From positions 1 through 59,933 of the forward strand of contig NZ_CAMPJD010000023.1 of assembly GCF_946886695.1 (NCBI RefSeq): DNA of 59,933 nucleotides, in the 5' to 3' direction. This DNA comes from an uncultured Pseudoxanthomonas sp. (GTDB lineage Bacteria > Pseudomonadota > Gammaproteobacteria > Xanthomonadales > Xanthomonadaceae). Below, one piece after another: positions 21,667 to 30,432 of this stretch. Every line of letters starts with the position of its first letter. Within the stretch, counting starts at the first letter, position 1. A program made the position numbers and the translations under genes. Below the pieces are notes generated by a model. The model was given only the letters and a program-made list of their open reading frames with translations, searched no databases and was not told the origin of the DNA.

Positions 21667-22569
21667 TCAGGATAAGGGGAACTTGGGGCCAAACAACGTC
21701 CGCCAGGTCTTCAAGGCATCGCCGTTTCTGCCGTGTCGGGCGTGGTCGATGGCGATAGAGGCCTGTTTGCTGGCAGCCATGAGCAATGAGCGTGCGCGGT
21801 CCTTTCGCGCGGCGTCCATGTCGTTGCTGATGGGGGGACCTAGGCCCGCCGGGTCTGGCCAGACATCGTGGATGCGGTCAGCCAAGGTAGCAAAGAGACC
21901 CTGCAACTCGCGATCAAACGCGCCGCCCCAACCGCCGTACAGGCATTCCAACGCCATCACTTCGATCAAGAATGATGGCTTGACCGGTTTGAGTTCTCCG
22001 TGCGCTGGGTTGTTATTCCAGTACTTGACCATGCGGACCAACCCTTTCCACTCATTGCCATAGGCTTGATGGGCTGCAGTAGCCTTTTCTTTGTGAATTT
22101 CGGGATCGGTTTTGATCCATTTGCCCGAGCCAGAATCCGGGATCTCATACTCGTTACCAATATCGAAAGCGGGTACCGCATCGATGCTCAGCACGCGGTA
22201 GTCGGTGTTGTCGTTGCTATCGACCACGATGCCGAAATCTACATTGACCGACCGCGCCTGTTTGCGGACGGCGGCCTTACCGTACTTCTGAACCAAGGCA
22301 TCGTGGAACGCATCGAGGACCTCGCTGGCGGGCTTGCTTCGGTAATGCTTCTCAGTCGCCTTCAGGACGAAGAAGATGTCGATATCCTTGAGCGGCTTGG
22401 TCTTGGTATGCCGCGCGTAGGAGCCGGTGAGAAAGCTCCGTTCGATATCGAATTTGGTCTCAAGATAGTCCCGCACCTCGTTCTGGCGCTGGGAGGCGTT
22501 CTTTTGCTCGCGCTCATTCAGTTCGAGGCGAGATTTGAACTTGCGGAACGCATCATCGATCGTAAGCAT
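21667..22569 (-). CDS. CD-NTase, CBASS cyclic-oligonucleotide synthase
   Basis: A 300-residue nucleotidyltransferase of the cGAS/DncV-like family. [19 protein letters not shown] gives the GS motif and the two catalytic aspartates (DID), and VNVDFGIVV gives the third. The C-terminal helical half carries [12 protein letters not shown]. It makes a cyclic di- or trinucleotide signal on phage infection. ATG 22569 is chosen over an in-frame TTG at 22584 because GGAGGA lies ahead of it and the ATG overlaps the HORMA stop as TGATG. Product nucleotide not predictable by eye. Confidence 0.9.
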
Positions 22570-23069
22570 CAGGTCTTCCTCCAATAGCCCGTGTGCGCCC
22601 CCAAGCCACTGTGCTCGACAGTTGCGCCCAAGCTTTGCTTGACCATGCCAGTGGTCGAGCGATAAGTGGTCGTGTACCAGCCATCCACATCAGGTCGGCC
22701 ATCCTTGGTGTCCATAAGCAAACGATACTTGGCCTGGGAAGGCACCAGCCCAGCCTTTTTGATGGCATAGCGAAGTTGATCGGTATCGGTCCAGAAGCTG
22801 CCGTCGCCGCCCGACCAGCCGTACTCGATCGTGATATCCCAGCGGAAAACCAACCCATCGTCAGAAGGGTCATAGATTTCCAGGACGACCTTGCGCAGAT
22901 CCTCGGTGCCCAACCACGTGCGGGTCGCCCGCATGTTGCTTTCCCAGCGGTCTGCAAAGTGCCCTGGGTCCAGTCCACTGAGCAGAATGATGTCCTTCAG
23001 GCTCTTGAGGATGTTGTCAGCCACGTAAGTGACGGAGTGTGTGCGAGAGTAGGTGGCGACGGTTGTCAT
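22569..23069 (-). CDS. cap7: CBASS HORMA-domain protein (Cap7)
   Basis: A 166-residue bacterial HORMA protein. Typical features are the start [20 protein letters not shown], the segment [12 protein letters not shown], and the strand VLEIYDP followed by RWDITIEYG. In type III CBASS the HORMA protein binds a closure peptide, associates with the CD-NTase and switches it on. It overlaps its upstream neighbour by 4 bases (ATGA) and touches the CD-NTase start, so the operon is translationally coupled. Confidence 0.85.
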
Positions 23070-23548
23070 GGCTTCAGGAAACCTCCCAAGTCCAGCGTCA
23101 GGCCGGGAGCAGGCGCAGCTGAAGCCGCGGCTTTGCCCGACACGGCAATGCCGGCCGACAGACTACGGGCGGTGATGCGCGCACTATGACGCTTGAGCGA
23201 AGCCTGCACCCAGGCCAGGTCCTCGTCCGTGCAAGGCAGGGATACAGCCCAATCCCCTTTGAGCGGATCGAATCCCAAGGGATCTTCGCTGGCGTCACTG
23301 TCCTCTATCGCATCGTCCTCGTACAGACAGTAGATCCGCGTGCGAGGCCCGTCGCATGTCACGATGATGGGAGCGGTATTGGGGGCATGATCTGAAATGA
23401 TGCTGGCGGCGATCCCTGCAGCTGCTTGCAGTTCATTGCGCGCCGAACCCTGCTCACCTCGGGTCAGCAATTCGACGATCATTTGCCACGTTTGCGTCGC
23501 ATCGCGAAAGGGCGAACTTCGAATCTTGCGACTGGCCACTGTCGTCAT
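23066..23548 (-). CDS. cap8: CBASS second HORMA-position protein (Cap8-like)
   Basis: A 160-residue protein between the TRIP13-like and HORMA genes, where two-HORMA type III CBASS operons carry Cap8. Its fold cannot be proved from sequence by eye. After about residue 130 comes an Ala/Pro-rich linker ([12 protein letters not shown]) and a short hydrophobic tail [11 protein letters not shown]. That layout would suit a HORMA closure motif, an inference. The start at 23548 ([10 protein letters not shown]) overlaps the upstream stop by 4 bases; the earlier start at 23599 lies deep in the neighbour. Confidence 0.65.
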
Positions 23549-24453
23549 TTGACCGCTCCCCCCGTTCGCGCGTGCTTGGCCGTCCGCATGGCGGCACACA
23601 GGTGGCTAACGGTCATCTTGTTGGGATCCATCGCCACGTTCGGTTCGGTGGCCAATGCATTGGCGACTGCTTTTCTAATGGCACGTCCATCCAAGCCGAC
23701 CGCCTCGGCGGCGCAGGTATCGAACTGCGCGCTCGTTGCGACCCTGGCGACGCCCGGAAAGGTTTTCGCCAGCCCCTGAAGACAATCAGTTAGGATCTGT
23801 TTGCAGGCTTGCTTGCCTGGTAGGGGTACTTCCATCACCAAGTCACAGCGCGACTTGAAGGCGCTGTCGACGGCTTGGGGAAAATTGCTGGTGGCCACAA
23901 ACAGCAAATGCGGGTGCTGCTCAGCCAACATGTCTAACTGCACCAGCACTGCATCCGTGGCTCGGTGAACGTCCACCGGATTAGCCTCAAGGCTGAGCTT
24001 GGAGCGGTCTGCGGCCAACGTTTCGACTTCGTCGAGCAGCACGATCGTAGGACCTTGCGAGGCGGCTTCAGCGATGGCTTGGGAGAACAGATCCGACACT
24101 GCCCGCTGGGTCTTACCCATGGATGCACTGGTCAGGGCGTGCGGGTCGACCTCCAGCAGACGGAATTTGCCCGCAGGGAAGGATTCGGCGACCCGATGAG
24201 CCAAACCGCGAGCCAAGGAGGTCTTTCCGGTCCCGGGCGGTCCTACCAATAGCAGCACGCCATGCAAGGGCAGTACGGTACGGGCAACCTTGGCCCGGAC
24301 CGTGAAGTTGACGATGGCCTGCGAAAGCAGCTGGCGCTTGCTTTCCTCATCCATGACGATCGAGCTCCACAACGCGCCCAGAGCCGGATCGGGCAGGGCA
24401 ACACTGCGGTGTATGCCCTTGGGCAGGTCAATGGGGGGCGGGTTTTTGGTCAT
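23545..24453 (-). CDS. cap6: CBASS TRIP13-like AAA+ ATPase (Cap6)
   Basis: A 302-residue AAA+ ATPase. Walker A is GPPGTGKTSL (about residue 71), Walker B is VLLDEVETLA, and the sensor is VATSNFPQAVDSAF with the arginine-finger region SRCDLVMEVPLPG. This is the Pch2/TRIP13 pattern. In type III CBASS, Cap6 unfolds the closed HORMA and holds back the CD-NTase, so it limits immunity. It is the first gene of the leftward CBASS operon and is divergent from the CapW-like regulator. Confidence 0.88.
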   Translation of the reverse strand: MTKNPPPIDLPKGIHRSVALPDPALGALWSSIVMDEESKRQLLSQAIVNFTVRAKVARTVLPLHGVLLLVGPPGTGKTSLARGLAHRVAESFPAGKFRLLEVDPHALTSASMGKTQRAVSDLFSQAIAEAASQGPTIVLLDEVETLAADRSKLSLEANPVDVHRATDAVLVQLDMLAEQHPHLLFVATSNFPQAVDSAFKSRCDLVMEVPLPGKQACKQILTDCLQGLAKTFPGVARVATSAQFDTCAAEAVGLDGRAIRKAVANALATEPNVAMDPNKMTVSHLCAAMRTAKHARTGGAVK

Positions 24454-24488
24454 TCAGGGCCTCCAGAACCAAGCGTAGCGATGGGACC

Positions 24489-24503
24489 GAATACTTTGTA
24501 TTC
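24489..24503. promoter_or_regulatory. Candidate CapW operator
   Basis: Perfect inverted repeat GAATAC, TTT, GTATTC in the 120-base gap between cap6 and capW. It lies just downstream of the predicted leftward -10 box, a position where a bound repressor would block initiation. A related half-site pair CCGAATA (24487) and TATTCGG (24540) frames the whole region. Confidence 0.6.
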
Positions 24504-24505
24504 TC

Positions 24506-24534
24506 ACAATAGCGTATAGTTTCTTTATAGGCAA
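24506..24534 (-). promoter_or_regulatory. Predicted promoter of the CBASS operon
   Basis: Reading the minus strand, TTGCCT (24534-24529) and TATTGT (24511-24506) are separated by 17 bases, a sigma70-like layout. The local sequence is AT-rich against its surroundings. Confidence 0.5.
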
Positions 24535-24574
24535 CTAACTATTCGGATGGTAGGGTGGCGGGCAGGAGGTGACC

Positions 24575-25486
24575 ATGGAACCCGCACCGGCCCCGGCGGC
24601 CGAGAGACCCCGTTGGGGCCAAGCCCGGCGATTAACCTTTATCGACGTGCGCCTGCAGTACGACGGGCGCATAAATCGAAAAGATCTAATGGCCTTCTTC
24701 GACATTTCAGTGCCACAGGCATCGGCGGATCTGGCGCTTTACCAAGCCATGGCCCCAAACAACCTGGAGTACGACGCCCGACTGCGTACTTACGTTGCGC
24801 TGCCCACGTTTGCTCCGCAATTCGGCCGTTCTGCGGCAACTCGCTATCTAGACGAGTTGAGACGGCTAGCGCGCGAGGTCATTTCCGAAGAAGAGAGCTT
24901 CATCGGCTTCGTGCCTGCGACCGGTGTGGTGGCCACACCAGCGCGCACGATTGAAAGCTCAGAAGTTTCGACCATCGTGCGGGCAATTCGTGATGCGCAT
25001 GGGCTTCATGTGCGTTATCAGTCCATGGACGAAGATCAACCCCAGCATTGGCTGCTGATGCCGCATGCCTTGGGTTTTGACGGGCTGCGTTGGCACGTGC
25101 GGGCCTGGTGCCACTCCCGAAAAGTCTTCCGCGACTTCGCCATCGGTCGACTTGCCATCCTGGACGTGCTTTCTGACGCGCAGCGTGTGGATCCGGCCAC
25201 GGACGCAGGCTGGAATACTCGTGTAGACGTCATCCTGAAGCCACATCCAAAGCTCACCGGCCCGCGTCGAGAGGCGGTAATTAAAGATTACGGCATGGTG
25301 CGTGGCCGCTGCGTGCTCGCGTGTCGCAAGGCGATGCTCTTCTACACGTTACGTCATCTGAATCTTCAGGGATTGACGACTTCTGACAACCCCGCGACCC
25401 AACATGTGGTCGTAGACAATGCCGACGATGTCCAGCGCTGGGTGGATGAAGATCGATGTGGCGCTGTGGTCGACCAGGTGCGATGA
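24575..25486 (+). CDS. capW: CapW-like WYL-domain transcriptional regulator
   Basis: About 303 residues: an N-terminal winged helix (YDGRINRKDLMAFFDISVPQASADL), a middle WYL-type domain with LHVRYQSMDEDQPQHWLLMPHALGFDGLRWHVRAWC (quoted in pieces: LHVRYQSMD, LMPHALGFDG, RWHVRAWC), and a C-terminal WCX-like region. CapW proteins are repressors that hold CBASS operons silent until infection. It is divergent from cap6 with an operator-like palindrome between them. ATG 24575 is chosen because AGGAGG lies 5 bases ahead; GTG 24569 overlaps that site. Confidence 0.85.
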   Translation: MEPAPAPAAERPRWGQARRLTFIDVRLQYDGRINRKDLMAFFDISVPQASADLALYQAMAPNNLEYDARLRTYVALPTFAPQFGRSAATRYLDELRRLAREVISEEESFIGFVPATGVVATPARTIESSEVSTIVRAIRDAHGLHVRYQSMDEDQPQHWLLMPHALGFDGLRWHVRAWCHSRKVFRDFAIGRLAILDVLSDAQRVDPATDAGWNTRVDVILKPHPKLTGPRREAVIKDYGMVRGRCVLACRKAMLFYTLRHLNLQGLTTSDNPATQHVVVDNADDVQRWVDEDRCGAVVDQVR

Positions 25487-26195: not shown

Positions 26196-26954
26196 ATGCC
26201 GATGCAGCAATTTGTTGGCCAAAGGTTGTATCACTTGGTGGGTGCGGGACATCCGGACGCTGACCCGGAGAACTTCGAAACTCTGTGCGCAATCTTGCGA
26301 TCGATGGAGTTGCGGACGTGCGAAGTTGCAGGTGAGCGTGGCGGGATCCGGACGCTCCGCGACCCCAGTCGTCCAGTGACCAACGGCGAGCCCATTCAGC
26401 AGTCCGTGGTCTGCTTGTGTGATATTCCGAGGAGGGATCTGCCCTTTCATGCTCGCCGCTATGGCCAATTCGGCATCGGAGTTAACCGATCTGTCGTCGC
26501 TCAATGGGGCGGTCGTCCCGTTATTTATGTTCCTTTTTCTAGAAAATCCCACGGTAGTTGGGGCGCCCGATTTCCTGCTGAAGTGAACTCCGTGCTCGAC
26601 GGGCTGGATCGCTTCTTTCCAGACACGCCATGGGAGCAATCAAGAATAGCGGGGAGCCCTGCAAGGGATGTACAAGAAGCCGCTGATCTGGCAAGTAGCT
26701 TGATCACGCGTGATGTTCAGGCCTTCCTAAAATTCTGGGATGTGGATCTTCCGGAGGACCATCCTGAAAACTTCTACATGGAACGGGAGTGGCGTAAGTT
26801 TGGCAACCTTGCGTTGGCGTCGTGTCTCCAAGAAATCATTGCGCCCCGGATGTATCACGATACTTTGCGAGAGCTTCTTGATGATCTTCGACGGGGTGAA
26901 CGCTACTTGATTAGCGAAGTCGAGTTGACCAGCGTCAGCGACCAGATGACCTGA
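26196..26954 (+). CDS. AbiGi-like abortive infection protein
   Basis: A 252-residue protein whose pattern fits the AbiGi family: VVCLCDIPRRDLPFHARRYGQFGIGVNRSV, followed by GGRPVIYVPF and later ENFYMEREWRKFGNL (quoted in part: CDIPRRDL, YGQFGIGV, YMEREWR). AbiGi is the antitoxin half of the lactococcal AbiG type IV system. The partner AbiGii nucleotidyltransferase is not adjacent. AGGAG is placed 6 bases before ATG 26196. Its role alone is uncertain; it may act with another toxin or be a stand-alone defence gene. Confidence 0.65.
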   Translation: MPMQQFVGQRLYHLVGAGHPDADPENFETLCAILRSMELRTCEVAGERGGIRTLRDPSRPVTNGEPIQQSVVCLCDIPRRDLPFHARRYGQFGIGVNRSVVAQWGGRPVIYVPFSRKSHGSWGARFPAEVNSVLDGLDRFFPDTPWEQSRIAGSPARDVQEAADLASSLITRDVQAFLKFWDVDLPEDHPENFYMEREWRKFGNLALASCLQEIIAPRMYHDTLRELLDDLRRGERYLISEVELTSVSDQMT

Positions 26955-27084: not shown

Positions 27085-27112
27085 TGTTTACATAACGGAT
27101 GTTATGCGAAGT
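27085..27112 (-). other. dif/pdif-like XerC-XerD site, left
   Basis: Read on the minus strand: XerC-type arm ACTTCGCATAA, 6-base spacer CATCCG, XerD-type arm TTATGTAAACA. The 11-6-11 layout and the CGCATAA and TTATGT cores equal those of chromosomal dif and plasmid pdif sites. It is in a short AT-rich gap (26955-27153) just after the exonuclease operon. Confidence 0.6.
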
Positions 27113-27153
27113 AAGCTATTGATTTTAAAGTATATTTAAAGCTTCCGCCTCAG

Positions 27154-27642
27154 TCAAGCCAGAGGCTTCTTCGCCCGCTCGTCCAGCCAGGCCGTCCGGA
27201 ATGCGAAAGCATCTACAAGCGCATGGTGCCGGCGTGCCGCTTTAGCGGGATCGAGCTCGAAGTACCGCTCCAGCCTCTGCATCAGAAGACCTTCCCGTGC
27301 AAGCGTTGTGCGGTAGGGAGGAGTTGGAGGGCTCAGTTGTCGTCCGCTCCAAACTCTATTGAGCATCGTGAAGTCGAGAGGTGCATCAGCAAATATCTCC
27401 ATGACACCCAATGGCTCCAGGAAGGCACGCAGAGCCTGCGTCATGGATGGGTCATTCAATGCAGCCTCACCTCGATCCAGAAGAGGGTAGACATTCTTGC
27501 TTACGAAGCTTGAAGGCATCCCGGGCAAAGGATCGCGCTCCGCGTAGAAAACATGTGCTCCATCCTCGCTCACCAGAGCCAAACTTACCAACTCGCGGAG
27601 GGCATCATTGGCCCACTCCGAATCTAGGAAAAGCCTGACCAT
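27154..27642 (-). CDS. DEDDh 3'-5' exonuclease-like protein, copy 2
   Basis: A 162-residue protein of the Rv2179c-like/DUF5051 exonuclease group. Asp7 and Glu9 (LFLDSEW), an Asp at 86 or 90, and His140 with Asp144 (RRHHALVDAF) supply the DEDDh set. Family members are RNase T-like 3'-5' exoribonucleases. It shares size, both end motifs and the ERDPLP loop with the gene directly upstream, with no bases between the genes, so it is a tandem duplicate that has diverged. Confidence 0.8.
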   Translation of the reverse strand: MVRLFLDSEWANDALRELVSLALVSEDGAHVFYAERDPLPGMPSSFVSKNVYPLLDRGEAALNDPSMTQALRAFLEPLGVMEIFADAPLDFTMLNRVWSGRQLSPPTPPYRTTLAREGLLMQRLERYFELDPAKAARRHHALVDAFAFRTAWLDERAKKPLA

Positions 27643-28194
27643 CTAAGGTTGCACTCGATGGATCTTCATAGTTCGCGCCCATGCCGGCGTCGGAACACGC
27701 CCCGTAACCACCAGCCACGCCATGCGTAAGGCTTCCGCGTCGACAAGCGCGTGGTGGCGGCGCGCTGCGGCACGAGGATGGCCCGCAAAATAGTCTTCCA
27801 CCAACATGCCCGTGGCGCCTTCCTTCAGCATTCGCGTCATGACGGGATTCGGAACCGGCCCACATGCCGCTGCCTGATCGTCTGAAAGGTCGAACCCAGC
27901 GATCACGTACTGTAAGAGGGCCAAGTCGTTAGGATAGTCTGCCACCACCATCGGCTCAGGGATGGCGCCCAAGAAGGCGCGCAGGCCGGTCGTCATTGCC
28001 TGATCGGTCATACGCCATCTGCCACGTTCGAGCAGGGGATAGACAACCGACCGCACGAAGTCGGTGGCCACCTCGGGCAAGGGATCGCGCTCAGCGTAGA
28101 ACCGGTGGATTCCGTCTTCAGTGATGAGCGCCAAACTCACTAGCTCGGAGCCGATCGGGTCCGCCCATTCGGTATCAAGGAATAAGTAGGTCAT
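27643..28194 (-). CDS. DEDDh 3'-5' exonuclease-like protein, copy 1
   Basis: A 183-residue protein with the same signature as the downstream copy: Asp7 and Glu9 (LFLDTEW), Asp86/Asp90 in VADYPNDL, His148 and Asp152 in RRHHALVDAEAL. The predicted activity is trimming of RNA (or DNA) 3' ends. It lies 4 bases after the small upstream gene and abuts its paralogue, all on the same strand as, and downstream of, an unusual tRNA gene. That suggests a shared transcript and possibly tRNA as a substrate; this last step is inference. Confidence 0.82.
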   Translation of the reverse strand: MTYLFLDTEWADPIGSELVSLALITEDGIHRFYAERDPLPEVATDFVRSVVYPLLERGRWRMTDQAMTTGLRAFLGAIPEPMVVADYPNDLALLQYVIAGFDLSDDQAAACGPVPNPVMTRMLKEGATGMLVEDYFAGHPRAAARRHHALVDAEALRMAWLVVTGRVPTPAWARTMKIHRVQP

Positions 28195-28198
28195 GGCT

Positions 28199-28441
28199 TC
28201 AGCTTGACGTGTACTTCTTCGGCCAGATCACTGTTGCCCCCTTAACCATCTCCGGCTGGATGAAATGTGTATAGGAGGGAGGCTTTCGGCCCTCGATTAC
28301 ATCCATGCGATCAAGCTCCTTGGTCCTGGCAATCATCTCTTGGACAAGAAGCCACCGGCCTTCTTCAGTCAGGCACCAGCCACCACGCACTTCGTCATAG
28401 ACAATGTGCGAGATGTAGTCGTCGGGATCTAAGACGGGCAT
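28199..28441 (-). CDS. Small protein of unknown function behind the tRNA
   Basis: An 80-residue protein, not recognised. It has YDEVRGGWCLTEEGRWLLVQEMIART, which resembles a short winged-helix or TA-type domain, and an end rich in basic and aromatic residues (VIWPKKY). The start at 28441 is set because the frame upstream runs into the tRNA gene, whose 3' end is 21 bases away. It is the first of three tightly spaced genes. Confidence 0.6.
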   Translation of the reverse strand: MPVLDPDDYISHIVYDEVRGGWCLTEEGRWLLVQEMIARTKELDRMDVIEGRKPPSYTHFIQPEMVKGATVIWPKKYTSS

Positions 28442-28462
28442 AAGCAACCCCGGTGAGAGGTA

Positions 28463-28555
28463 TGGTGCCCCTGGCCGGACTCGAACCGGCATAAGCCGCT
28501 TATCTGGCGCTGACGGGTTATAAAACCGCTGCTCTAACCATTGAGCTACAGGGGC
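28463..28555 (-). tRNA. Unusual tRNA, anticodon UAU, long variable region
   Basis: Acceptor stem GCCCCTG pairs with CAGGGGC, followed by discriminator A and an encoded CCA. The D arm is GCTC AATGGTTA GAGC, and the T arm GCCGG TTCGAGT CCGGC is perfect. The anticodon arm GCGGT, TTTATAA, CCCGT reads UAU (Ile, AUA codon) with a mismatch at the top of the loop. The variable region is about 23 bases with a hairpin ATAAGC/GCTTAT, which is class II size. tRNA-Ile is normally class I, and AUA is normally read by a CAU tRNA. It may be a real minor tRNA of the island or a decayed copy. Confidence 0.75.
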
Positions 28556-28576
28556 TGATCAGTCGACTGATCAGCC
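28553..28576. repeat. Perfect 24-bp palindrome at the tRNA 5' end
   Basis: Half-site GGCTGATCAGTC is followed at once by its reverse complement. Three bases (28553-28555) are also the first bases of the tRNA, so the palindrome covers the RNase P cleavage point of the precursor. It could be a regulator or recombinase site, or fold in the pre-tRNA leader. Confidence 0.7.
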
Positions 28577-28664
28577 AAGTATTCGGAGCGAGCGGCAAAG
28601 GATGTTCACGGCAGCGAATCTAGCAAGTCTGGACGACAAATCAATAGCTCTGCGGAACATCGCT

Positions 28665-28738
28665 CCCAAATTCTGGGGCATTACTACGAGTAACAGCATA
28701 CGATGTTGGTTAGACCACATGCCCCCAAATTTGGGGGC
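28665..28738. repeat. Inverted repeat pair around a perfect 18-bp palindrome
   Basis: Bases 28721-28738 form a perfect palindrome, half-site GCCCCCAAA. A partial inverted copy, CCCAAATTCTGGGGCAT, is near 28665. The pair looks like a leftover of an insertion element end; no gene lies across it. Confidence 0.4.
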
Positions 28739-28811
28739 GCTTGAACCGTCTGACACGCAGATGCATGATCGAACCGTGAAGTCCCTGAGAGCTGAGGCGG
28801 AGGCTACATCT

Positions 28812-28988
28812 ATGACTTCGGACGCACCTGGGACAGCTCAGGGCCTGCCAGACGACGAGTACGACGCTTGGTTCAGAGCCAAGGTGCAGCGTGCGCTGCA
28901 AGACCCGCGGCCTTCAATACCGCATGAGGAAGCCATGGCTCGGGTTGAGGCAACAATTCAGGCTATTGCCGATCGCCGGAATCGTTGA
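28812..28988 (+). CDS. RelB/StbD-like antitoxin, orphan
   Basis: A 58-residue protein ending LPDDEYDAWFRAKVQRALQDPRPSIPHEEAMARVEA (key parts DEYDAWFRAKVQ and RPSIPHEEAMARV), a pattern of RelB-type antitoxins of RelE/ParE pairs. GGAGG is found 8 bases before ATG 28812, which fixes this start. No toxin follows; a transposon end begins 48 bases downstream and may have removed it. It could still act as a solitary antitoxin. Confidence 0.55.
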   Translation: MTSDAPGTAQGLPDDEYDAWFRAKVQRALQDPRPSIPHEEAMARVEATIQAIADRRNR

Positions 28989-29035
28989 TGAGGCGGTCAC
29001 CGGATCGATGAATCAGATGCAGAACTGCAGGAATT

Positions 29036-29143
29036 TGTCGTCCCACGGAGCAGCGTTGCTGGAAATTAAAGTCCAGATTTCAGCGCTGCTGGAACTTATG
29101 GGCAGGGATTGCTGGAAATTAGGGCCTCGGCTGCTGGAACTTG
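29036..29143 (+). mobile_element. Transposon end with four 13-base direct repeats
   Basis: A TGTCG start at 29036 is followed by TTGCTGGAAATTA (29056), CTGCTGGAACTTA (29086), TTGCTGGAAATTA (29109) and CTGCTGGAACTTG (29131). TGT tips with multiple inner transposase-binding repeats are the build of Tn5053/Tn7/IS21-like elements. No transposase gene and no opposite end were seen in the window, so this is a solo end. Confidence 0.5.
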
Positions 29144-29228
29144 TTGGTCGTCAGCAATCGGCAGGGTTGGGGCCTTTCAGGAACCAGCCGATCAAACGGA
29201 TCCACCAGCCGATCTCGCCCAACCAGCC

Positions 29229-29256
29229 ATTTCGCATAATGCCTATTATGTCAAAG
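29229..29256 (+). other. dif/pdif-like XerC-XerD site, right
   Basis: XerC-type arm ATTTCGCATAA, 6-base spacer TGCCTA, XerD-type arm TTATGTCAAAG. It lies 17 bases before the end of glucokinase, exactly where the low-GC accessory DNA stops. Orientation is opposite to the site at 27085-27112 and the spacer differs. Confidence 0.65.
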
Positions 29257-29273: not shown

Positions 29274-30290
29274 TCAGATCTCCAAACGGTTCTGCCGATA
29301 CCAGGCCACGGCCCCCAGCAGCCCAAGCTGCCCATGCTCCACCCGCCATACCGGCACCCGCTCCAGCTGCTCGGTCATCACGCCCTTGTTGAGGTACCGC
29401 TGCAGGAAGCGCCCGTCGTGCAGGAACTGCGGAATGTGCGCCGTCACGCCGCCCGCCAGATACACGACCCGGGCACCGAAGATGATCGCCAGATCCCCGA
29501 CCACGCTGCCCAGCCAGCCACAGAACGTTTCCAGCGTTTCGCGTGCCAGCGCGTCCGATGCCGCCGCGGCCACCAGCGCACCGGCATCCGCATGCACGGG
29601 CGTGGCCCCGCGCAGTTCGCACAGGCAGCGATACAGGTTCATCAGGCCCGGACCGGACAGCACATGCTCGTTGTGCAGGTACGGACGGTCCCTCAACAGC
29701 CGGCGCACGATGTCCAGCTCCAGCGCATTGCCGGCCGCCAGCGATGCCTGGCCGACTTCCGTCGGCAGCACACGCGGCGGTTGGCCTTCGATCCAGACGG
29801 CGGCGCCCAGTCCCGTGCCGGGGCCGATCACCAGCGCCGGCGACGACGTGGCCACGGAGTTCAATGGCGTCAGCGGTGACAACGTATCCGGCGCCAACGT
29901 GGGCACCGCATTCGCTACCGCCTCGAAATCGTTGATCAGCTGCACCCAGGCCAAGCCGGCACCCACGCGCGTCTGTTCCACCGACACCGCCCACGGCAGG
30001 TTCGAATTGATCAGACGGTCGCCTTCCAGCACTCCGGCGATGGCCACGACCGCGCCATGGCAAGGCGTGCCGGCCGCATAGTCGTGCAGGATGGAAGCGA
30101 GATCCGGATGCTCCGCGCAGGCGTAGCGACGGTAATCGTGGATGTCGTTGCTGCCGTCGGCGTCAATCCAGCCGAGGCGGGCATACGTGCCGCCCACGTC
30201 AGCGACGATGATGCGTGCACGCGAAACATCCTGCGTGTGTGCTGCGGGAACGCCTGTCGGCACCTTGTCCATCGTTACCGTGCCTGCCAT
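29274..30290 (-). CDS. glk: Glucokinase
   Basis: About 338 residues. The ATP-binding entry IIVADVGGTYARLGW is at the N-terminus, the sugar-binding NDFEAVANAVP in the middle, with GPGTGLGAAVW and a C-terminal VYLAGGVTAHIP, as in proteobacterial Glk. It phosphorylates glucose to glucose 6-phosphate in the cytoplasm. Starts at 30290 (MAGTVTMDK) or 30272 are both possible; a start at 30329 seems too long. It forms the left edge of the core-like DNA and is divergent from the copper operon. Confidence 0.9.
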   Translation of the reverse strand: MAGTVTMDKVPTGVPAAHTQDVSRARIIVADVGGTYARLGWIDADGSNDIHDYRRYACAEHPDLASILHDYAAGTPCHGAVVAIAGVLEGDRLINSNLPWAVSVEQTRVGAGLAWVQLINDFEAVANAVPTLAPDTLSPLTPLNSVATSSPALVIGPGTGLGAAVWIEGQPPRVLPTEVGQASLAAGNALELDIVRRLLRDRPYLHNEHVLSGPGLMNLYRCLCELRGATPVHADAGALVAAAASDALARETLETFCGWLGSVVGDLAIIFGARVVYLAGGVTAHIPQFLHDGRFLQRYLNKGVMTEQLERVPVWRVEHGQLGLLGAVAWYRQNRLEI

Positions 30291-30432
30291 GCGAATGCCA
30301 CGCTGCCCAAAGCCTGAAATGCGCGACAAGGATAACGTGTCGTTGTCCGATCGTGGCGTGAGCCGACCGCGGACGGCGCGTAGCTCACCCTACGGAAAGG
30401 TACGTCCACGGGTCATGGCGTATCATGCGGGC

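Follow-up and report, generated by a model that had tools for sequence, protein, structure and literature searches.

The window, the whole stretch of 59,933 nucleotides analyzed here from an uncultured Pseudoxanthomonas sp., carries two mutually inverted Xer-type sites of 11-6-11 layout with a small cargo of genes between them. The left site is called S, and its outer side is that of its XerD-type arm. The features are as follows.

21667–24453, minus strand: CBASS genes (cyclase, two HORMA proteins and TRIP13; profile matches), on the outer side of S.
26196–26954, plus strand: AbiGi-like gene (profile match), the nearest to S on its outer side.
27085–27112, minus strand: S, a Xer-type site with XerC-type arm ACTTCGCATAA, spacer CATCCG and XerD-type arm TTATGTAAACA (sequence match; relatives).
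27112–27124, minus strand: putative IHF box AATCAATAGCTTA, with 0 mismatches to WATCAANNNNTTR (motif match).
27125–27144, no strand assigned: A+T-rich stretch preceding the box (85% A+T vs 43% further out).
27154–27642, minus strand: exonuclease-like gene 2, 162 aa, with a weak RNase AS match (E 8e-4; 19.7 bits, far below the 200-bit cut-off).
27643–28194, minus strand: exonuclease-like gene 1, 183 aa (E 1.4e-3, below the cut-off).
28199–28441, minus strand: small ORF, 80 aa from an inner ATG (ORF list).
28463–28555, minus strand: tRNA-Ile(UAU)-like gene with an enlarged variable region, read as Ile(TAT).
28602–28988, plus strand: gene with a PaaA2/RelB antitoxin domain at residues 85–115 (profile match).
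29229–29256, plus strand: chromosomal dif, spacer TGCCTA, without an IHF box (genus-wide comparison).
29274–30329, minus strand: ORF of 351 aa, named glk in the earlier note, at which the collinear core begins (ORF list and locus comparison).

On the minus strand S reads ACTTCGCATAA-CATCCG-TTATGTAAACA, and on the plus strand the right site reads ATTTCGCATAA-TGCCTA-TTATGTCAAAG; with what we take to be the XerC and XerD arms, the XerC-type arms of both point inwards. Exact matches to CGCATAA-N6-TTATGT occur in the whole window at these two sites alone, and the chance expectation of such a match (0.00024 under a first-order Markov model), together with the lack of further exact matches in the window, rules out S as a random match. 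The earlier note's description of two inverted 28-base sites with different spacers and inward XerC arms was confirmed in coordinates and sequences, and the GC boundary that it placed here is a climb in G+C from ~57% to 67% at 29.2–29.5 kb. The cargo that it listed (a tRNA, an exonuclease operon and an antitoxin gene) corresponds to a tRNA, two exonuclease-like genes and a gene whose PaaA2/RelB domain was confirmed by profile. Gene 2 has, by eye, residues resembling what we take to be the DEDDh motif, and gene 1 has relatives in 20 of 247 family genomes. A Pfam search with the small ORF gave no match; its listed 97-aa version begins within the tRNA. Profile matches of the ORFs between S and dif were to families other than IS1202 transposase, or there were none, and comparison of the whole interval with phages and plasmids returned the tRNA and nuclease parts only, among the matches listed.

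The right site is the chromosome's own dif, because in 34 of 37 genus genomes a T-spacer site is present once. Its right flank is collinear (94–95%) with two relatives, G009 and G031, and dif forms the edge of a variable zone. In the single-contig relatives G001 and G015, dif lies at 49.6% and 50.5% of the record, which equals the terminus only if the record begins at the origin; Tn3-family elements may prefer the terminus. Where the earlier note saw two module sites bounding cargo, the genus-wide comparison showed one of them to be dif itself; the other, S, is of another class and adjoins a putative IHF box that the note had not described.

By its sequence, S is an IHF-flanked Xer site. The box, matched to what we presume is the IHF consensus, ends 3 bp ahead of CGCATAA and has one base in common with the XerC arm. 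Because the spacers of S and dif agree at 1 of 6 positions and the box is found only at S, the two are not partners. Eleven S-type sites occur in 9 of 37 genus genomes, and the spacer CATCCG is intact in G009 (locus L032). Among 118 distinct sites collected with a flank-blind pattern, a box with at most one mismatch stands at gap 3 on the XerC side in 15 sites (perfect in 11), which are non-independent and mostly from one bacterial family; the best alternative position accounts for 5 sites, and the XerD side for at most 2. In 17 copies the 20 bp preceding the box are 55–90% A+T, compared with 37–44% further out. The copy of S on an Erwinia plasmid has its box at gap 4 instead of 3.

This unit of box plus site, ~40 bp long, recurs in settings whose sequence is otherwise unrelated: next to dif (at least three genera), on plasmids, and within Tn3-family elements 74–123 kb in length. 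The stretch common to loci L265 and L266 is the unit alone (41 bp), and L143 and L053 share, apart from dif, a 35-bp unit. The IHF-Xer pattern is rare, being present in 1 of 369 class genomes (G001), and it occurs in 7 viral contigs of 8–108 kb. A plasmid search with the window S returned 225 records at E ≤10 (best E ~0.02), of which two were examined. The inverted pairing described in the earlier note recurs in relatives: S and dif are inverted in 14 of 16 pairs and direct in 2 genomes, while the box side of S faces dif in all 16.

Evidence that S recombines in relatives comes from the combination of two inner alleles with two unrelated outer flanks, because all four combinations are present and the junction of the exchange falls within the box-plus-site unit. 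Identity within each inner or outer class is 99.4–100%. Between outer flanks 1 and 2 there is no alignment, and both inner alleles continue unbroken to the site; the shared sequence therefore amounts to only ~41 bp. This comparison covered 14 of 19 S copies, pairwise, and concerns sites with spacer CGTCGC, the window S having CATCCG. The exchange seen took place at S, on its outer side; none was seen between S and dif. None of 38 genus genomes contains the outer flank of the window S, so that no exchange partner was seen among them, and G009 shares the 23-bp site alone. A clean exchange at S was considered for L053 (S. sepilia) and L113 (S. maltophilia) and set aside, since alignment of the two extends to the outer sides (85% over 1458 bp).

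Our studies suggest that S probably came from a mobile element and serves XerCD, with help from IHF, as an exchange site; it sits to the XerC side of dif, within the variable zone. XerC and XerD would occupy the two arms, and IHF would bend the A+T-rich DNA next to the XerC arm and thereby aid assembly of the synapse; we infer from the sequence both that these proteins act at S and that the window copy is active. Recombination between two S sites sharing one 6-bp spacer would then join, swap or release the DNA on the outer (XerD) side, while the box-side DNA would remain with the site. A recombination of S with dif in the orientation of the window would invert the cargo, with no excision. More tentatively, IHF may be a further accessory control of Xer: a compact IHF-XerC-XerD site would let mobile DNA, whether plasmid, viral contig, giant Tn3-family element or dif-side island, swap XerD-side DNA, and synapsis with dif may deliver such elements, cargo included, to the terminus, always in the same orientation.

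The pdif module proposed in the earlier note stands as regards its inverted Xer-type sites, different spacers and small cargo, and falls as regards its right site, which is dif, and its cargo, which is not tied to the pair. A closed module of the Acinetobacter type, in which S and dif bound the cargo and XerCD moves it as one unit by acting at both sites, would account for the inward XerC arms, the antitoxin gene and the prevalence of inverted pairs. We nevertheless consider it unlikely, as the identity of the right site, the two direct pairs and the cargo class between S and dif, which varies from genome to genome, count against it. The sites themselves gave a mixed picture in relatives carrying this cargo: G009 has it beside dif with both sites intact, and G002 (L047), G169, G209 and G254 have nuclease cargo next to dif but no S close by. 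The presence of cargo beside dif without S therefore argues against a closed S-dif module. Some plasmid stretches that lack a dif-like site also carry nuclease cargo, and among the genomes and plasmids examined no other pair of Xer sites, such as the earlier note envisaged, was seen to enclose this cargo.

It is improbable that S is the leftover attachment site of an IMEX inserted at dif by XerCD. An inserted IMEX should be flanked by direct repeats, yet the pairs are predominantly inverted and the spacers of S and dif differ. A third, degenerate site was sought in the window and 19 other oriented loci, with one weak candidate only (L046); no second direct site lies within the window, beyond which the island may extend. 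Such a relic would fit the ending of the variable zone at dif, and the available text of the sources describes filamentous phage XacF1 and IMEX using dif in related bacteria or elsewhere (PMC4076744, PMC5357621).

There is similarly little probability that plain homologous recombination took place near an inert S whose box is a promoter or a relic. In the SseB copies a promoter-like TTGCGA-N17-TATAAT, recognized by eye, does read outward across S, its TATAAT overlapping the box. Yet AATCAA-N4-TTA is conserved even without TATAAT (L053, L113, L214), the arms of S are conserved among relatives while the spacers vary, and the unalignable outer flanks leave the ~41 bp as the only shared sequence.

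S-carrying elements with GAGGGT repeats encode a tyrosine recombinase near tnpA; that S is the target of such a TnpS-kind enzyme instead of XerCD is nonetheless very improbable, given that each of the four long elements has S as its sole exact dif-like site, at the end away from tnpA, that the unit occurs in the window and in E. coli and Erwinia plasmid stretches without a nearby gene of this kind, and that the Tn4651 tnpS-tnpT intergenic region lacks a dif-like core, on which ground S as a TnpS resolution core was also rejected. The terminal GAGGGT inverted repeat is present in 6 of 38 genus genomes; matching 5-bp flanks were found for one of the four long elements (ATGAA, G001), with mismatches in G028, G020 and G021. 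No good match to the repeat was found near the window S or the cargo interval, and S was accordingly discarded as a constant end of such elements.

Comparison of S with known systems, as far as the accessible portions of the sources describe them, places the preferred reading, an IHF-assisted exchange site, among several partial likenesses. Acinetobacter dif/pdif modules, including chromosomal ones already described (PMC12907356), share inverted 11-6-11 neighbours, different spacers and toxin-antitoxin-type cargo (PMC12907356, PMC10132070, PMC13141974), whereas the window pair is dif plus an IHF-boxed site and its cargo also occurs without the pair. IMEX such as CTXphi, VGJphi, TLCphi and the gonococcal island are likewise mobile DNA using host XerCD near dif (PMC5357621), although the pairs of S and dif have unlike spacers and mostly an inverted orientation. 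Insertion in one orientation on the XerC side of dif is also a trait of the IS1202-family dif hunters, but these insertion sequences measure 1.5 kb and sit 5 bp from the XerC site (PMC10132070); none was identified in the interval between S and dif. TnXax1-like Tn3-family tnpS/tnpT transposons resemble the relatives' elements in their GAGG-type inverted repeats, tnpA, tyrosine recombinase and passenger blocks (PMC4619425, PMC7157771); in contrast, S lies near the end opposite tnpA, the Tn4651 rst is not dif-like, and the window S lacks a GAGGGT-type repeat nearby. The plasmid sites cer and psi also combine a Xer core with a site for an accessory protein on its XerC side, a counterpart to the putative box of S, but these span ~200 bp and use ArgR or ArcA plus PepA (PMC11724359, PMC5357621), while S would have a single IHF box directly at the XerC arm. 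As controls of Xer these sources name FtsK for dif and, for plasmid sites, PepA together with ArgR or ArcA (PMC11724359, PMC5357621); control of a Xer site by IHF did not turn up in the literature searched, which was the available text of a set mostly outside subscription journals. XerCD being widespread, a compact XerCD-IHF coupling site would, if true, represent another control mode, would help to explain how, in this family, defence and metal-resistance blocks come to be shuffled near dif as well as between chromosome and plasmid, and would make the dif flank resemble an ordered landing zone.

The left-hand Xer-type site of the window, S, is best read as an Xer exchange site that lies beside dif and is assisted by IHF; XerCD and IHF are the proteins likely to act there, judging from the arms of the site and a putative IHF box at its XerC arm. 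We call the box (XerC) side of S inner, its XerD side outer, and box plus site the unit. The features concerned are:

21667–25486, outer side of S: CBASS genes, two HORMA proteins, TRIP13, and an adjoining WYL-domain gene
27085–27112, minus strand: S, spacer CATCCG
27112–27124, minus strand: putative IHF box
27154–28194, minus strand: two tandem DEDDh-like exonuclease genes
28463–28555, minus strand: tRNA-Ile(UAU)-like gene, enlarged variable region with invariant GCCAGATAAGCG
29229–29256, plus strand: dif, spacer TGCCTA

A search of the whole window for CGCATAA-N6-TTATGT returned exactly two matches, at 27090–27108 (minus) and 29233–29251 (plus), where dinucleotide composition predicts 0.00024, and these matches bear out the coordinates, arms, spacers and orientation that the earlier note had assigned to both sites. 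All comparisons were made against relatives, the nearest genome compared being G001, in which 24% of the words in the window recur.

Of the two sites, the right-hand one is dif. A single site with a T-starting spacer was found per genome in 34 of 37 genomes of the genus, the spacer being TGCCTA in 13 of the 34. Because sequence to the right of dif is collinear with relatives (94% identity to G009, 95% to G031), whereas collinearity left of the cargo was found in none of 19 oriented loci from 16 genomes, which hold matching pieces only, dif is the edge of a variable zone. In the window this zone carries the CBASS genes and an AbiGi-like gene; a WYL-type gene 70% identical to the window's lies near dif in G024. 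Some 70 bp adjoining dif (29157–29228) are common to the window, L031 and L043, and similar sequence was seen by eye inverted across dif in several loci; this segment is perhaps the end of an element inserting at dif.

The exonuclease family occurs repeatedly beside dif in several genera. Relatives of exonuclease 1 were found in 20 of 247 genomes of the family, 12 of them with the gene and a dif-type site on one contig. Taking the nearer copy where two are present, and including a G633 "dif" site that has a C spacer, the distance is at most 2.5 kb in five of the 12, at most 70 kb in nine and at least 317 kb in three; the binomial figure for five within 2.5 kb, 2e-12, ignores common ancestry. 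Of 26 exonuclease loci, 10 have a full-length tRNA-like match no more than 0.8 kb from the gene, two of these loci overlapping. ARAGORN read the anticodon as TAT at seven loci, with a mean identity of 96%, and as TCA in L275; the tRNA-like gene may have no role in translation. Since the tRNA-like gene, nuclease and dif fall within 1.7 kb in G169 and G209 without S, the cargo is an independent passenger beside dif. Identity of the window's copy is 90.6% with its counterpart in G002, whose core beside dif is interrupted by a contig end, and 83% with that in G009, whose core is 94% identical, a pattern that suggests transfer. A gene at 1222–1761 of L265, which from inspection by eye we take to resemble an RNA 2′-phosphotransferase gene, is found in G163 outside S, close to a nuclease remnant.

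Every case with S and dif on one stretch or contig was considered, giving 16 pairs spaced 0.9–9.9 kb apart (the window, G001, G009, G017, G020, G021, G023, G028, G033, S. sepilia L053, S. maltophilia L113, L143, viral contig L166, G625, G163 and G186), many of common ancestry and thus not 16 independent events. The box side of S faces dif in all 16; S is inverted on the XerC side of dif in 14, and direct on its XerD side in G163 and G186. A second S in G028 lies 40 kb from dif in the same orientation. In G024 (L040) an incomplete S, its spacer the same as in the window, abuts dif head to head, as if cargo had been lost.

S differs in kind from dif. Spacers starting with C were found at 11 sites in nine of the 37 genus genomes, and their XerC side is conserved as TCAATAACTTACTT or a near variant ahead of CGCATAA. 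The IHF consensus is WATCAANNNNTTR, and the conserved letters match it, ending 3 bp ahead of CGCATAA. To gather sites from GTDB genomes and viral contigs, a pattern that ignores the flanks was built after the S core; once duplicates and sites within 75 bp of the end of a stretch had been discarded, 118 distinct ones remained. At a gap of 3 on the XerC side, 15 of the 118 have at most one box mismatch and 11 a perfect box; the best other position gave five sites and the XerD side at most two, and the Acinetobacter pdif sites in the set lack the box. The chance of a perfect box at one fixed place is about 2.5e-6 at the window's composition, and the window's S has no mismatch, whereas 11 chromosomal dif sites have three to seven at this position. 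In 17 copies the 20 bp ahead of the box are 55–90% A+T, against 37–44% further out.

The unit recurs in DNA that is otherwise unrelated. L265 and L266 have only 41 bp in common, and L143 and L053 only 35 bp, besides 25 bp at dif. The unit occurs on Xanthomonas plasmids (L210, with one mismatch, L211 and L212), on plasmids of E. coli (L255) and Klebsiella (L256), and on an Erwinia plasmid (L246), where it adjoins hipA and the box stands at gap 4. The perfect-box pattern matched seven viral contigs of 8–108 kb and one of 369 genomes of the class, and the C-spacer pattern four of 198 genomes of the family; sites of this kind are rare and patchy, as expected of mobile DNA.

A GAGGGT-type terminal repeat lies about 1.5 kb from S in six of 38 genus genomes, and in four of the six that contig also carries a partner repeat, 73.8 to 123 kb off. 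Only one of these four elements has matching 5-bp flanks:

2105781–2228815 of G001 (L031, L230–L235): 123-kb Tn3-family element, 8.3 kb from dif

The far end carries a Tn3-type transposase, which is complete in G001, G020 and G021 and a fragment in G028; a tyrosine recombinase lies near it in all four. Where transposon ends and dif share a stretch, all five ends are close to dif, at 17 bp (L166), 0.4 kb (G021), 1.4 kb (G023), 8.3 kb (G001) and 39 kb (G028).

S recombines in relatives, and the strongest evidence that it works, although for spacer CGTCGC, comes from the sequences on its two sides. The block between S and the repeat carries BPSL0761 and SseB genes; Xanthomonas plasmids have it too, with an identity of up to 99.7% across 1598 bp. 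Its allele a (L031, L045, L046, L148, L210; 99.8–100% identical) and allele b (L044, L138, L166; 99.7–100%) are 94.2–94.8% identical to each other. Outer flank 1 (L031, L138, L210; 100% over 330 bp) and flank 2 (L046, L148, L166; 99.4–99.7%) do not align with each other, and all four combinations are present.

Combinations of inner block and outer flank at S
a with 1: L031, L210
a with 2: L046, L148
b with 1: L138 (1094 bp of inner block compared)
b with 2: L166

The sequence common to all four combinations, judged by eye, is about 41 bp, the box plus the site. Rival readings, each less likely, are a closed module formed by S and dif, a relic of an IMEX, a transposon recombinase acting at S, and plain homologous exchange.

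Dif modules, IMEX, dif-hunting insertion sequences and Tn3-family passengers are already known; as far as the literature was searched, an IHF box at a Xer site and the table of four combinations are new.
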